Assembly (NCBI RefSeq): GCF_013004105.1
Contig: NZ_CP053085.1
Span: 4,588,001 to 4,652,000, forward strand
Reading direction: 5' to 3'
Length of the DNA stretch: 64,000 nt
DNA from: Gemmatimonas groenlandica
Lineage (GTDB): Bacteria > Gemmatimonadota > Gemmatimonadetes > Gemmatimonadales > Gemmatimonadaceae
Part shown: positions 509 to 50,646 of the stretch, one piece after another
Layout of the letters: every line of letters starts with the position of its first letter
How positions within the stretch are numbered: the first letter of the stretch is position 1
The notes under the pieces: model-generated
Database searches by the model: none
Seen by the model: only the letters and a program-made list of their open reading frames with translations
What the model was told of the DNA's origin: nothing
Made by a program: the position numbers and the translations under genes

Positions 509-913
509 ATGCGACACGCCTTTCGCTACGCCGGCGGCTTCGAAAAGAACTTCCCGAAGCTGACCTCCGCCACGACGTCCTTCGAGGGCAGCGATGGCCA
601 GCAGCACGAGTACGCGCCGTGGCCGGAAGCGGTGAATGGTCTGCGCATCTCGTTCATGGAGAAGGCCGGCAAGAAGTTCGTGGCCGTGCGCATCGCCGAC
701 GACACCAGCGACGTCGTGCTGCACAACGACATGGTCCTGGTCCCGGGCGAGCATTTCGGCTTCGGCGTGCACCTGCACGGCACGCCCACGGTGGTCGAGG
801 ACAACATCGCCATCATGAAGCTGCTGGAAGACGTGACCAAGAAGAATGTGGCCCACAGCGACGAACTCCTGCAGATTCGGGCGCGCTTCAAAGCCGCGAA
901 CACCAAGCACTAA
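509..913 (+). CDS. Hypothetical cytoplasmic protein, 134 aa
   Basis: I do not recognise this gene. It encodes 134 residues with no signal peptide or membrane segment. The start is the ATG at 509 (MRHAFRYAGGF); the longer in-frame extension back to base 8 is antisense-like, arginine-rich sequence overlapping the permease gene. Composition is that of a normal folded protein, with alternating hydrophobic strands (FVAVRIADDTSDVVL) and a lysine-rich C-terminal helix. A strong hairpin follows the stop, so it is probably its own transcription unit. Confidence 0.75.
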   Translation: MRHAFRYAGGFEKNFPKLTSATTSFEGSDGQQHEYAPWPEAVNGLRISFMEKAGKKFVAVRIADDTSDVVLHNDMVLVPGEHFGFGVHLHGTPTVVEDNIAIMKLLEDVTKKNVAHSDELLQIRARFKAANTKH

Positions 914-931
914 GTCACCGGTTCGGTGAGG

Positions 932-969
932 CGGGCCGGCTCTACGTCATTTGACGGATAGCCGGCCCG
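932..969 (+). terminator. Perfect two-tier hairpin, likely terminator
   Basis: CGGGCCGGCT (932-941) pairs perfectly with AGCCGGCCCG (960-969). Inside the loop CGTCA pairs with TGACG around TT, giving a long stacked hairpin. It starts 18 nt after the stop at 913, ahead of the lipoprotein gene at 1024. The downstream tract is only moderately T-rich (TTCTGCGTTCTGC). Confidence 0.7.
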
Positions 970-1023
970 TTCTGCGTTCTGCACTTTGGTGGGTACGTGC
1001 CTCAACCTACTGGAGTGCTCGCC

Positions 1024-2658
1024 ATGACATCGCTCAATGCTCGTGTACGCCGCCGCGCGCTACGCGCGCTGGCGCTGGTCGGTGCCTTTGGCGCCGTCGC
1101 GTTCTCGGCCGCCTGTGTCTTCTACCGCACGGAAGTTCGCGCGGTGGAGCGACCCACGGCCGACGCCCCGACGTTCATCAAGTCGCCGCTCAAGGCGCAT
1201 CTGAAAGACGGCAGTATCGTCGTGTTTCGCAACGGCGCCACCGTGACGCGCGAAAGTCTCACCGGCGAAGGCCGTCGCTACACGCTGCAGAACACGACGT
1301 CGCGTGTGTACGACCGCGTGCCGATGGACAGCGTGGTCGGGGTGGAGACGTTCGAGAACAAAGTGAACGCTGCGCCCACCGTGGCGGCGTCGATCGCCGG
1401 CGCGGCGCTTGGTGCCGTAGCGGCCGCCGTGCTGGCCGTCGCGATCTTCGGCTCATGTCCCACCGTGTACGCCGACACCGGCGCTACCGGTGAATTGCAG
1501 GCCGAAGGCTTCTCGTACTCCATCGCGCCGCTCATGGAACAGCGCGATGTCGATCCGCTGCGGGTGCGCGCCGACTCCACCGGTCGCGTGCGCCTCGAGC
1601 TCCGCAACGAAGCGCTGGAGACACACTACATCAATCACATCGAGCTGCTGGCCGTGCGGCACGCGACCGGTGCGCGCATCGTGCCCGATCAGAGTGGACG
1701 TCCGGTACTCGTGTCGGGATTTGCCGATATCGATAGCGCCACGGACCGCGCGGGACGCGACGTGCGCAGCACGCTGCAGTCGCGCGACGGCTCGCTGTAC
1801 GCCACCGACCCGCGCATCATGCGCGACGCGCGCTTGGGTGATCTCGACGACTGGATCGACGTGCACGTAGGCGAGCTGCCCGCCGGCGATTCGGTGGCCG
1901 TGGTCCTGCGCCTCCGCAATTCGCTGCTCAACACGGTGCTGCTGTACAACGGTATGCTCGGAGGACGCGATGCGGCCGACTGGCTGCACGAAGGGCTTGG
2001 GCATTTCGGCACGACGGCCGAGATGGCGCTCTGGAATCGCCGCACGATGGGGCTGCGGGCCACGGTGGACGGCGTCAGCCGCACCGATGTCGTACACGGC
2101 GCCACCGCGCGCCTGGGAGACGTGGGGCCGATCGCCTTTCGCGACGTCGCACTCGTATTGCCGCGCTCGGCCGTGAACGCCCGCACCGCACGCATTCGCT
2201 TGGCATTCGTGGCCGACAATTGGCGCATCGATGAAGTGCGCGTGGCGGGCACGGTGTCACGCCCTGCCGTGACCACACTCGCCGTGGAACGCGTAGTGGT
2301 GCCCACGCCCGCTGTGGGTACGGCGCCGGTGCTCGACACCGCGGCCGTTTCAGCCATCGCGGCCGCCGACACGCGCTACCTCGAAACACGCCCCAGTCAG
2401 CGCATGGTGCTGGAGTTCGCGCGTGATCATCGAAGTGCGCGCGAGGCGTCGCCCTCTGCCGACTCCACCACGACGTACATGATCGCGTGGCAAGGCTGGT
2501 ATCGCGAATGGATTCGGGGCGACTGGCTGGCCAATCCCACGCGCACCGAACCGTTCAAGCCCGGTGATGCCGCCGTGCTGACCGCGTTGCGGCGCTGGAG
2601 CGAGCGCAAGGACAGCTTCGAGCGTGAATTCTACGCGTCTCGTATTCCCGTTCGGTAA
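1024..2658 (+). CDS. Large lipoprotein of unknown function, 544 aa
   Basis: The start at ATG 1024 is favoured over 997 because GGAG lies about 8 nt upstream and the signal peptide then begins with MTSLNARVRRRALRAL. The signal peptide ends in a lipobox (FSAAC) at about residue 31, so the product is probably a lipid-anchored envelope protein. A glycine/alanine-rich hydrophobic stretch follows at about residues 120-145 (SIAGAALGAVAAAVLAVAIFGSC) after a beta-rich segment. The rest looks like a mixed beta protein with no motif I can name. The next lipoprotein gene starts 10 nt downstream, so the two are probably co-transcribed. Confidence 0.8.
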   Translation: MTSLNARVRRRALRALALVGAFGAVAFSAACVFYRTEVRAVERPTADAPTFIKSPLKAHLKDGSIVVFRNGATVTRESLTGEGRRYTLQNTTSRVYDRVPMDSVVGVETFENKVNAAPTVAASIAGAALGAVAAAVLAVAIFGSCPTVYADTGATGELQAEGFSYSIAPLMEQRDVDPLRVRADSTGRVRLELRNEALETHYINHIELLAVRHATGARIVPDQSGRPVLVSGFADIDSATDRAGRDVRSTLQSRDGSLYATDPRIMRDARLGDLDDWIDVHVGELPAGDSVAVVLRLRNSLLNTVLLYNGMLGGRDAADWLHEGLGHFGTTAEMALWNRRTMGLRATVDGVSRTDVVHGATARLGDVGPIAFRDVALVLPRSAVNARTARIRLAFVADNWRIDEVRVAGTVSRPAVTTLAVERVVVPTPAVGTAPVLDTAAVSAIAAADTRYLETRPSQRMVLEFARDHRSAREASPSADSTTTYMIAWQGWYREWIRGDWLANPTRTEPFKPGDAAVLTALRRWSERKDSFEREFYASRIPVR

Positions 2659-2668
2659 GGAGCGCGCC

Positions 2669-3127
2669 ATGACCTCGTACATGAACCGCAACATTGTGCG
2701 CGCCCTCGCGTTGTTCGCGTGCGTACTCCTGTCCGCCTGTCGCTTCGGCACCAAGCCGGGTGAAATAGACTGGGTGGTCTCTCCCGAAGGCGCGCGCATT
2801 GCCCTGCGCGTCGTCGGCGAGACGCAGGATCGCATGGGCGAACTGCTCTCCGTCGACAACGAACATGTCCTCATGCGCAGCCCTGAAGTCGTCGAGGGCG
2901 TCGAGCTGCGCCGACCCAAAATCACCCGCGTGGCGTGGAGCCGTGTCTACGCCATCGACGTCGATCAACTGGGTGGCGCATACGACGTGGTGCGAGGTCA
3001 GCGTGTCGCCGAGGAAACACGTCGCAAGCTCGCCCTGATCAGTCGCTTCCCGCAGGGCGTTTCCCTGGAGCTGCTCACGCGATTGCTGGCGGCCGACAAG
3101 CAAGCCGCCGTAGAGGAGATCAAGTGA
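2669..3127 (+). CDS. Small lipoprotein of unknown function, 152 aa
   Basis: Start ATG 2669 has AAGGA about 7 nt upstream, overlapping the end of the previous gene's region. The N-terminus is a clear lipoprotein signal (VRALALFACVLLSAC, cleavage before Cys23). The mature part is 130 residues, charged, with a short beta-rich core (VLMRSPEVVEGVELRRPKI) and a C-terminal helical tail. Family unknown. It sits 10 nt after the 544-aa lipoprotein and is convergent with the M20 peptidase, whose stop is 13 nt away. The two lipoproteins may form an envelope pair. Confidence 0.8.
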   Translation: MTSYMNRNIVRALALFACVLLSACRFGTKPGEIDWVVSPEGARIALRVVGETQDRMGELLSVDNEHVLMRSPEVVEGVELRRPKITRVAWSRVYAIDVDQLGGAYDVVRGQRVAEETRRKLALISRFPQGVSLELLTRLLAADKQAAVEEIK

Positions 3128-3139
3128 TCGCAACCGCCC

Positions 3140-4855
3140 TTACTGCTTTTCCCGTCCGTCGTCGCCCTTCGGTGCCACCACCTGCGGCCTTACCGTCGGA
3201 TACTCGATGCCCAGCTGTTCCATATACGTTTTGAACTTCGTGGGGTCGTAGTAGAACTTCTGCAGCTGCGTCTTGTAGCGCGCCATGATGTCGGCGTTCA
3301 GGTACGTTGGCGGCATGTCCTGCGGGCGGATGAATGGCGTGTACGTCACGTTCTTCGTCTGCACGTTCTTGAAATAATCCCACGCGTCGGCGACGACCTT
3401 GGGTGTGAGCATGATATCGAGCATCGTGAGCGCCTGCACCTTGGCGCCGGCCAGGGCGCCCTTGTGCGCGATCGGCGTCGCCATGGCGATCGCGTTCGCC
3501 CAGTTGTGCCCCGGCAAGCCCGGAATGTTCGACGGATAGCGCAGCGTGATCGTCGGCATGTTCCATGACACGTCGCCGATATCGTCGGATCCGCCACCCA
3601 TCCAGTTCTGCGGCGTCTCGGCACCACGCAGTTCCTTGTTCACCTGCTCGGACAAGCCGAAGTCGGGTGAACCGAGTTCCTTCTGAATGCCCTTCGCCAG
3701 CGTCTGGTCCTTGTCATCCCACTTCGGCATGCCCACCGTCTGCACATTGGCGTGCATCGCCTGCGCAATCGGCTTGCTGAAGTGTCCCGACCAGCCCGAG
3801 CCCAGAATCAGAATCGTATCGAGCTTCGTGTCGGTCATCATCGCGGCACCCTCGGCCACCTTCTTGCCGACTTCGAACAGCGCCATCGTGCGCGGATAGT
3901 CCTGCTCGCGGAAGTAGAACCAGATGCTCGCCGTGCTGGGAACCACGTTCGGCTGATCACCGCCGTCCTTGATCACGTAGTGCGAGCGCTGCTGCAGCCG
4001 GAGATGCTCGCGCTTGTACTCCCACCCCTGTCCCATCAGCATGACCGCGTCGAGTGCGCTTTTGCCGCTCCACGGCGAACCGGCCGCATGCGCGCTCGAG
4101 CCTTTGAAGCGGAACTCGGCCGACAACAACGCGCTCGAGCCGCTGGCGCCCCATGACACGCCGAGGTCGTTGCCGACGTGCGTGAACAGCGTGACGTCGG
4201 TGTTCTTGAAGATTCCGGCACGCACGAGGAACGCCTTGCCCGCCATCTGCTCTTCGGCGATGCCCGGCCACAGCAGCAGCGTGCCGTTGATCTTGTCGCG
4301 CTGCATGAGCTGCTTCACCACGATCGCGGCCACGATGTTCACGGCCTGTCCCGAGTTGTGTCCTTCACCATGACCGGGGCCACCCGTCACCATCGGATCC
4401 TTGTAGCCCACGCCCGGCTTGTTGCTGGCCTGCGGAATGCCGTCCACATCGGAGCCGAGAGAAATCTCCGGCTTGCCCGTGCCGTAGCTCCACTTGGCCG
4501 TCCACGCCGACGGGATACCCGCCACGCCCTTCTCGATGGTGAAACCTTCCTTGGCCAGCAGGGTCGTGATGTAGCGTTGCGACTCGAATTCCTGGAAGCC
4601 GAGCTCCTGGAACGAGAAGAGCATGTCCACGATCTCCTGCACCTGCTTGGCGCGGGATTCGACCATCACCAGCGCTTCGGCCTTGAGCTTCTCCAAGCGG
4701 GGGTCGACGGGTGCAGCCGCGGTGGTGGCGGCCGGCGGGGTCGCTCCCTGGGCCAGCAGCGCGGGCGCAGAGGCCGGCACAGCGGCTAGTGCCGAGAGGC
4801 CGGCAACGAGGGAACGGGTACTGCGAAAGCAGTCGCGAAAGCGGGTCGGATGCAC
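3140..4855 (-). CDS. Secreted M20-family amidohydrolase (AbgB-like)
   Basis: This is a metal-dependent amidohydrolase/peptidase of the M20 (AbgB/aminobenzoyl-glutamate hydrolase) type. Visible motifs are SLGSDVDGIPQAS, the His-rich GGPGHGEGHNSG, and the Glu pair in IAEEQMAGKA, followed by a dimerisation region with FKGSSAHAAGSPWSGKSALD. GTG 4855 is preferred because GGGAG lies 6 nt upstream and the signal peptide then begins VHPTRFRDCFRSTRSLVAGL and ends near LLAQG; an in-frame ATG at 4924 would add 23 residues. The 571-residue precursor would be exported to the periplasm or envelope. It is divergent from the Omp85-like gene. The natural substrate is unknown. Confidence 0.88.
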   Translation of the reverse strand: MHPTRFRDCFRSTRSLVAGLSALAAVPASAPALLAQGATPPAATTAAAPVDPRLEKLKAEALVMVESRAKQVQEIVDMLFSFQELGFQEFESQRYITTLLAKEGFTIEKGVAGIPSAWTAKWSYGTGKPEISLGSDVDGIPQASNKPGVGYKDPMVTGGPGHGEGHNSGQAVNIVAAIVVKQLMQRDKINGTLLLWPGIAEEQMAGKAFLVRAGIFKNTDVTLFTHVGNDLGVSWGASGSSALLSAEFRFKGSSAHAAGSPWSGKSALDAVMLMGQGWEYKREHLRLQQRSHYVIKDGGDQPNVVPSTASIWFYFREQDYPRTMALFEVGKKVAEGAAMMTDTKLDTILILGSGWSGHFSKPIAQAMHANVQTVGMPKWDDKDQTLAKGIQKELGSPDFGLSEQVNKELRGAETPQNWMGGGSDDIGDVSWNMPTITLRYPSNIPGLPGHNWANAIAMATPIAHKGALAGAKVQALTMLDIMLTPKVVADAWDYFKNVQTKNVTYTPFIRPQDMPPTYLNADIMARYKTQLQKFYYDPTKFKTYMEQLGIEYPTVRPQVVAPKGDDGREKQ

Positions 4856-48812: not shown

Positions 48813-50228
48813 ATGGCCACAGACGAAGATCGCCTCACGGGCTTGTGTACGCGTCCCACGCTACGCGAGCGACTGGCCGAGGCGCTGGCCCAGGCGACCC
48901 CCGACGGTCCGCAGCCGGCGTTGTTGGCGCTCGACCTCGATCGCTTTCAGGAGGTCAACGATAGCACGGGCCTGGCCACTGGCGACGGCGTACTCAGTCG
49001 TGTGGCGCGCCGCATCGTGAGCGCCGCACCACCGGGGGCAACGGTCGCCCGCATCAGTGGTGATGAATTCGCCGTGCTGTTGCCGGATTCGAGTACCGGC
49101 GAAGCGGTCGCGGCGCGTCTGCTCGAACTGATTGGCCGACCATATGCCGTGAACGGTCACGCCGTCACGATCAGCGTCAGCATCGGTCTCGCGCTGTCAC
49201 CGCACGATGGCGGTGATGCCGACGCGCTGCTGCGTTCCGCGAGTATTGCGCTGCACCACGCTGAGGCGGCAGGCAAGAACCACTCGGTTCGCTTCGAACC
49301 ATGGATGCAGGCCAGCGCCAGCGCGCGCCAGTCGCTCGAAACCGACCTGCGAGCCGCCCTGGCGCTCAACAAAGTGGAGCTGCGCAAAGCGATGGTAGTG
49401 GACCAGTTCAAGATCTACTACCAGCCGCAGGTGTCGTTGCCGGATATGCAGCTCACGGGGTTCGAGGCGCTGGTGCGCTGGCAACATCCGGTGCGCGGTA
49501 TGATCAATCCCGACGACTTCATCCCGCTGGCCGAAGAGATCGGTCTGATTGGTTTGCTGGGCGACTGGGTGATGCACACGGCCTGTCGGACGGCCGCCGC
49601 CTGGCCCCTGTTGTCGAATGGGCGGGCGCTGCAGGTAGCGGTGAACGTGTCGCCGATTCAGTTGCGCGAACGACGCGCGCTGGTGGCGAGCATTGCCGAC
49701 GCGCTGGCCCAATCAGGGTTGGACGCCGCGCGTCTGGAAGTCGAGATCACCGAAAGCGCGTTGATCGGCGATGCATGCGAGACACTGCGATCTATCAAGC
49801 ACCTCGGTGTCACGCTGGCGCTCGACGATTTTGGCACGGGCTTCTCCTCGCTGAGTCAACTGGCACACTACCCGTTTGATCGACTGAAGATCGATCGCTC
49901 GTTCGTCCGGAATTTGCCCGATGGCGCTGACCTGACGAGTGCCGACGCCACGCACGCGCGATGGATGATCCAGGCGATTGCCTCGTTGGGGAGTGGCCTC
50001 GACATGTGCACGATCGCCGAGGGCGTGGAGACCATCGCGCAGGCCGAGATGGTGCGCGCCGCCGGCGTCACCGATATCCAGGGATTTCTCATTTCGCGTC
50101 CAGTCCCCGAGGGCGATGTCCTCGCGCTCGTGCGACGACTCGATGCAGCCAGCACCGATGCCATTCACATTTTCACCGAGATCAACCATGTCGAACGCCC
50201 TCTACAGCCTGGCGTACTTCAGCCGTAA
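48813..50228 (+). CDS. GGDEF-EAL protein without sensor domain; degenerate GGDEF
   Basis: A 471-residue c-di-GMP protein. An in-frame TGA 18 nt upstream of ATG 48813 shows no N-terminal sensor domain is missing: the protein starts at DRLTGLCTRPTLRERLA. The cyclase signature is SGDEF (residues 82-86), so activity is doubtful, though it may still bind GTP. The EAL domain is intact: GFEALVRWQHP (EAL 218-220), NVSPIQL, EITESAL, ALDDFGTGFSSLSQLAHYPF (DDFGTG 338-343), RLKIDRSF and AEGVET. It is a likely phosphodiesterase. Its last 41 nt overlap the BLUF gene in another frame. Confidence 0.95.
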   Translation: MATDEDRLTGLCTRPTLRERLAEALAQATPDGPQPALLALDLDRFQEVNDSTGLATGDGVLSRVARRIVSAAPPGATVARISGDEFAVLLPDSSTGEAVAARLLELIGRPYAVNGHAVTISVSIGLALSPHDGGDADALLRSASIALHHAEAAGKNHSVRFEPWMQASASARQSLETDLRAALALNKVELRKAMVVDQFKIYYQPQVSLPDMQLTGFEALVRWQHPVRGMINPDDFIPLAEEIGLIGLLGDWVMHTACRTAAAWPLLSNGRALQVAVNVSPIQLRERRALVASIADALAQSGLDAARLEVEITESALIGDACETLRSIKHLGVTLALDDFGTGFSSLSQLAHYPFDRLKIDRSFVRNLPDGADLTSADATHARWMIQAIASLGSGLDMCTIAEGVETIAQAEMVRAAGVTDIQGFLISRPVPEGDVLALVRRLDAASTDAIHIFTEINHVERPLQPGVLQP

Positions 50229-50646
50229 CAGCATCGTCGGCACCGCCGACGAAGTGCAGGCCAACATCGCCGCGATTTTGCGCACCGCGCGACGCTCCAA
50301 CGCGCAGTCCGGCGTCACCGGTGCGTTGCTGTTCAGCGACGGATGTTTCGCACAAGTGCTCGAAGGTGAGCGCACGCAGGTGGAGACGATCTTCGAAACG
50401 ATTCAGTGCGACCCACGTCATCACGATGTCACCATCCTGCACCTGCACGAAATCGAAGCGCGCAGCTTCGGTGCCTGGTCGATGGCGTTCGCAGGTATCG
50501 ACGGCGTTTCGGTCGACCCGCAGTTGCAGCACGACGGCATGCACGATCTCGCGGGTATTATGGCCCAGGACGCGGGCCAGAACCTGCTGGCTTCGCTCCA
50601 CAGCGTGGTGCATCGCGACGATCTGGCGCGCCGCGCCGACGGCTAG
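50188..50646 (+). CDS. BLUF-domain blue-light sensor
   Basis: A 152-residue protein from ATG 50188. The flavin-binding BLUF fold carries the key residues of the photocycle: Tyr10 (LYSLAYFSRNS), Asn38 (ARRSNAQSGVTGALLF), Gln56 (DGCFAQVLEGE) and Trp97/Met99 (SFGAWSMAF). About 50 residues of C-terminal helices follow, with no output domain, as in short BLUF proteins. The gene overlaps the EAL gene by 41 nt, which suggests coupled expression. Since fused BLUF-EAL proteins exist (BlrP1 type), it may control the adjacent EAL protein by contact. Confidence 0.94.
   Translation: MSNALYSLAYFSRNSIVGTADEVQANIAAILRTARRSNAQSGVTGALLFSDGCFAQVLEGERTQVETIFETIQCDPRHHDVTILHLHEIEARSFGAWSMAFAGIDGVSVDPQLQHDGMHDLAGIMAQDAGQNLLASLHSVVHRDDLARRADG

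Follow-up and report, generated by a model that had tools for sequence, protein, structure and literature searches.

A split GGDEF-EAL/BLUF gene pair in Gemmatimonas groenlandica as a candidate blue-light-regulated c-di-GMP phosphodiesterase

The gene pair and its predicted products

Our study concerns two genes on the forward strand of the window, by which we mean the whole 64,000-nucleotide stretch of Gemmatimonas groenlandica DNA that was analysed. The first encodes a GGDEF-EAL protein and the second a short, stand-alone BLUF protein; the features of the locus are as follows.

48813-50228, forward strand: GGDEF-EAL gene, 471 amino acids, assigned from Pfam domains, residues and the GGDEF-EAL fold of its AlphaFold model
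50188-50646, forward strand: stand-alone BLUF gene, 152 amino acids, with its ATG at 50188 and its stop codon ending at 50646, assigned from Pfam, residues and the BLUF fold of its model
50188-50228, forward strand: overlap of the two genes, 41 nt, in different frames
49368-49406, forward strand: region of an 11-residue linker insertion (about NKVELRKAMVV) between GGDEF and EAL, from an alignment of pair members

Pfam places the GGDEF domain at residues 5-157 (E = 3.6e-32) and the EAL domain at residues 189-430 (E = 1.9e-64) of the first product, with nothing N-terminal of GGDEF and no space for a further domain in the 471 residues; this bears out the original prediction that the protein has no sensor of its own. 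We also considered that the EAL gene might once have had an N-terminal sensor, but the window holds no remnant of one upstream. The BLUF domain occupies residues 5-100 of the second product (E = 3.9e-29), whose first methionine aligns with the start of its relatives, and the start call is thus correct. As had been predicted, the BLUF gene begins within the last 41 nt of the EAL gene; the two are nevertheless separate genes in different frames, and the locus encodes neither a single-chain EAL-BLUF protein (BldP-type) nor a BLUF-EAL protein (BlrP1-type). The closest relative from the same family (genome G398, locus L092) has no overlap, its EAL stop and BLUF start together reading TGACATG, from which we conclude that the 41-nt overlap arose when the EAL gene of the window lost its stop codon. 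This rules out overlap length as a meaningful trait: to judge from the alignments, close linkage is what is conserved and the length of the overlap is incidental.

The EAL domain of the window protein retains a complete catalytic set (E218, N278, E311, D338, D339, K359, E403 and Q423; 8/8). Its GGDEF half is degenerate, with SGDEF at the signature motif, Q46 at the position of the FK lysine and L54 at that of the GH histidine, so that none of the features of an active diguanylate cyclase (GG(D/E)EF, FK lysine, GH histidine) is intact. The BLUF protein has both the fold and the residues of a BLUF photoreceptor: Y10, N38, Q56, W97 and M99, which we take to be the positions around the flavin in AppA and PixD, are all present, and they are kept in the 18 relatives examined, the sole change being M to L at position 99 in G729. 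The AlphaFold model of the BLUF protein (mean pLDDT 71) matches the folds of PixD, BlrB and AppA, while that of the GGDEF-EAL protein (pLDDT 84) matches the GGDEF-EAL structures of PA0575 and MorA; a low-confidence stretch at residues 187-195 of the latter is noted together with the linker insertion. Among its closest relatives the window BLUF shows good conservation of the C-terminal helical tail, which fits a docking role.

The same genome has four genes for BLUF proteins and, above the Pfam cut-off, eight for EAL proteins (nine matches in total), and only the BLUF gene described here adjoins an EAL gene. At a second locus (L003, G000:C1:2544746-2548021) a BLUF gene (1351-1785, reverse strand) has a PAS-HD-GYP-type gene (HD_5, 2004-3236, reverse strand) on one side and on the other a GAF-PAS gene that seems to encode a sensor kinase, the three sharing one strand; the arrangement is a possible second link between light and c-di-GMP. 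A 2022 review notes no BLUF domains inside HD-GYP proteins (PMC8846402). A third locus (L004, G000:C1:3800410-3803682) encodes a 354-residue BLUF protein (778-1842, reverse strand) with a weak match, below the Pfam cut-off, to the AppA SCHIC / B12-binding C-terminal region, and from this match we read it as a putative AppA-like regulator in a phototrophic member of Gemmatimonadota.

Conservation and inheritance of the pair

The pair was sought in surveys of 395 genomes of Gemmatimonadota, 385 of Alphaproteobacteria and 349 of Burkholderiales, together with a genome-contig scan and plasmid records. Among the 395 Gemmatimonadota there is one close relative of the window BLUF (69% identity), in G398, which belongs to another genus of Gemmatimonadaceae and has a matching GGDEF-EAL gene (63-66% identity) directly upstream; the pair is absent from the other surveyed members of the window's genus. 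The genome-contig scan recovered it from a Burkholderiales MAG (L091; EAL 69%, BLUF 68%), a betaproteobacterial MAG (L093) and two Acetobacteraceae (L094, L095), and the plasmid records from Skermanella mucosa (L096), Aureimonas (L097) and the Rhizobiaceae Neorhizobium, Sinorhizobium and two Rhizobium (L098-L101). On one of these plasmids (L100, Rhizobium sp. CC-CFT758) the EAL partner is split into several frames and the BLUF gene is open, through either decay or sequencing errors. The alphaproteobacterial and Burkholderiales surveys added pairs in G932 (Burkholderiales) and G1002; in G729 the two genes are adjacent as well, but the pair is more distant. Members of two phyla keep the linkage, at identities of 63-69% and 40-51%.

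All 14 BLUF proteins that score at least 84 bits against the window BLUF in HMMER, the window included, have a same-strand GGDEF-EAL gene directly upstream (14/14), whereas among the weaker BLUF loci (about 98, with flanks up to 1.5 kb) such a gene lies upstream in only 2, one of which is a fusion. The observation that would have refuted the original prediction, most relatives having the BLUF gene but lacking the EAL gene, was thus not made for this orthologous group; the exception, detected by BLAST only, is Skermanella rosea, where a similar BLUF (53% over 85 residues) has no EAL gene beside it. With the BLUF start set by alignment to the first residue of the window BLUF, the distance from EAL stop to BLUF start is -41 in the window, -4 in four members (the ATGA overlaps of L091, L093, L094 and L097), 0 to +9 in five and +22 to +41 in four, and translational coupling of the two genes is likely. 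The flanking genes vary among members (a GH15-like gene, cydAB, bchE/bchJ, repABC; in Skermanella mucosa bchE and bchJ come next), which indicates that the pair moves as a unit.

The EAL and BLUF distance matrices of the 12 core pairs agree (Mantel r = 0.88, p = 1e-4). The EAL tree fully supports a group made up of the window and the Gemmatimonadaceae, Burkholderiales, G932 and L094 members, and in the BLUF tree the same members are nearest to the window by path, although the fork is not resolved. No unpaired GGDEF-EAL protein of Gemmatimonadota exceeds about 45-47% identity to that of the window, against 64% for the paired protein of G398 and 69% for that of the Burkholderiales MAG; the two genes thus share their inheritance, apparently even across phyla. 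The simplest reading is that the pair was transferred from one phylum to another. The GC content of the pair (64.2%, against 64.3% for the window) bears no trace of recent import, so that such a transfer would be old or its donor similar in composition. Simple linkage could also account for the co-inheritance, a point against functional partnership.

Fused versions, for which a comparison of genomes had been suggested, do exist: PAS-GGDEF-EAL-BLUF is found in one chain in four Burkholderiales-order genomes (G859, G1069, G975 and G830), three of the four proteins having an additional periplasmic-binding-protein domain in front, and the domains follow one another as in the split genes. These proteins form their own branch in both the EAL and BLUF trees, at only 32-39% identity, and hence represent as much analogy as homology; they show that the combination is workable, without making them the source of the window pair.

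The 11-residue linker insertion is shared by the window and the Gemmatimonadaceae, Burkholderiales and L094 members, and is not found in the other alphaproteobacterial members. Within the window's subgroup the GGDEF domain is degenerate in most members and no N-terminal sensor is recognisable; a 430-residue N-terminal extension in L091, considered as a candidate sensor, appears to be non-coding, an open frame overlapping cydB. In most of the remaining alphaproteobacterial members the GGDEF motif is intact and about 120 residues precede the domain; Pfam recognises a PAS there in L095 alone. We infer that the window's subgroup came to depend on the BLUF protein for its input.

A model of light control, its alternatives and the link to phototrophy

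Because the pair recurs in distant bacteria and is fused in others, the BLUF protein very probably switches the EAL enzyme. Our comparative data suggest a model in which the two-gene operon is probably a split blue-light-regulated c-di-GMP phosphodiesterase whose BLUF component would regulate the EAL protein in trans. The BLUF protein is expected to bind flavin and change state in blue light, and would then dock on the GGDEF-EAL protein and alter its EAL activity through physical interaction. By analogy with PapB-PapA, BldP and BlrP1, light would most likely raise c-di-GMP hydrolysis; motility and biofilm formation are governed by c-di-GMP, and the physiological output may be less biofilm or more motility in the light. 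As for the degenerate GGDEF half, it is probably a GTP-binding or dimerisation module and not a source of c-di-GMP, and GTP binding could add a metabolic input. Degenerate GGDEF domains can affect EAL activity upon GTP binding (PMC3989770).

A shared operon might also reflect nothing more than a common light response, the BLUF protein acting not on this EAL but on another partner such as a transcription regulator. AppA acts on PpsR in this way. Short BLUF proteins are known with varied partners, most of those surveyed here have no EAL neighbour, and the genome itself has three more BLUF genes, one of them AppA-like; the near-exclusive GGDEF-EAL adjacency of this BLUF subgroup and the fusions in the same order nevertheless lead us to regard this alternative as unlikely.

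The Acetobacteraceae pair of L094 raises a different question. Its EAL gene (2508-4004, forward strand) encodes D, D, Q, K, D, K, D and Q at the eight catalytic sites and its product looks catalytically dead, yet the BLUF gene beside it is kept and intact, and hydrolysis is thus not the output in every member. Together with the degenerate GGDEF half of the window's subgroup and the precedent of degenerate GGDEF-EAL receptors (FimX, LapD), this could mean that the EAL protein is a scaffold sensing c-di-GMP or GTP rather than an enzyme, with light and c-di-GMP read jointly through a BLUF-EAL complex. We consider such a role improbable for the window protein, which keeps all eight catalytic residues, as does every other member in which all eight can be read except L094. 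That the genes are chance neighbours with an accidental overlap is scarcely credible: the 41-nt overlap is indeed not conserved, but the pair turns up in two phyla, in 14 genomes or records whose flanking genes differ, and with only about nine EAL genes in the genome it is implausible that chance would bring one next to a BLUF gene again and again; the 14/14 adjacency and the fusions refute this reading.

A split, light-regulated phosphodiesterase would be of interest in two respects. As a small two-protein system with natural split and fused forms, it has a docking surface and a signalling direction that are directly testable, and, its sensor and enzyme being separate chains, it is a candidate for a blue-light tool acting on c-di-GMP. 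The literature searched yielded no description of the split GGDEF-EAL/BLUF operon family, its occurrence in Gemmatimonadota, its spread across phyla or its phototroph bias; earlier mention is possible, most subscription papers lying outside the search.

The window genome, a single contig of 5.18 Mb, carries the reaction-centre L and M genes and is therefore that of an anoxygenic phototroph. Reaction-centre genes are present in eight of the nine pair-bearing genomes tested (the window's, G398, G400, G402, G403, G404, G932 and G729) and absent in pair-bearing G1002. Across Alphaproteobacteria and Burkholderiales they occur in 5/6 genomes with the pair against 35/148 BLUF-bearing genomes without the split pair, the latter including fusion carriers (Fisher p = 0.005, a statistic that ignores relatedness). 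Within Gemmatimonadota the link is uninformative, since BLUF-bearing genomes are mostly phototrophs (23/31) and remain so where the pair is lacking (21/29). The Rhizobiaceae and Aureimonas plasmid hosts are probably not phototrophs, which makes the association only a tendency. We put forward tentatively, as a suggestion that may well not hold, that anoxygenic phototrophs retain the split module preferentially and that it has passed between Pseudomonadota and Gemmatimonadota as one piece. If this is so, phototrophs would own a light-to-c-di-GMP switch beside their photosynthesis genes; the photosynthesis of phototrophic Gemmatimonadota was acquired from another phylum, and the pair suggests that they also gained a c-di-GMP light switch.

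Comparison with known systems

Control in trans, as read here from sequence, is a principle already known from PapB-PapA, with BldP as its fused form. In Rhodopseudomonas palustris the short BLUF protein PapB and the EAL protein PapA form a heterotetramer through which blue light raises c-di-GMP breakdown, PapB apparently acting through its C-terminal helices (PMC8846402). The window pair resembles this system in combining a stand-alone BLUF with a separate EAL-domain partner, here encoded adjacently and with conserved linkage; it differs in that PapA is described as a solo EAL whereas the window partner is GGDEF-EAL, and the likeness drawn here is one of domain content. An arrangement of the PapB/PapA type might exist in a phototrophic alphaproteobacterium (L134, G527:C11): a short BLUF gene there comes after an apparent hemA and converges with a REC-EAL gene.

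A 2017 paper on BldP reportedly describes an EAL-then-BLUF order in a C-terminal EAL-BLUF module (Allochromatium vinosum, Magnetococcus marinus). This is the order of the window genes, and the PAS-GGDEF-EAL-BLUF fusions resemble BldP; BldP is, however, one chain, whereas the window pair is split and without an N-terminal sensor. BldP is listed as a blue-light-activated BLUF phosphodiesterase, and in BlrP1 of Klebsiella pneumoniae BLUF controls an EAL phosphodiesterase that light activates about 4-fold (PMC8846402, BldP in Table 1). The original prediction had likened the window genes to BlrP1. Its notion of a split pair stands, given the conserved linkage and the existence of fusions, whereas BlrP1 gives way to BldP and PapB-PapA as the nearer analogues: it is fused, in the opposite order (BLUF-EAL) and without GGDEF, while the window has two genes with GGDEF-EAL first. 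Proteins of the DosP, MorA and PA0575 type share the common GGDEF-EAL core, the window protein being about 30-40% identical to solved structures, but carry their own sensors within the same chain, unlike the sensor-less GGDEF-EAL protein of the window.
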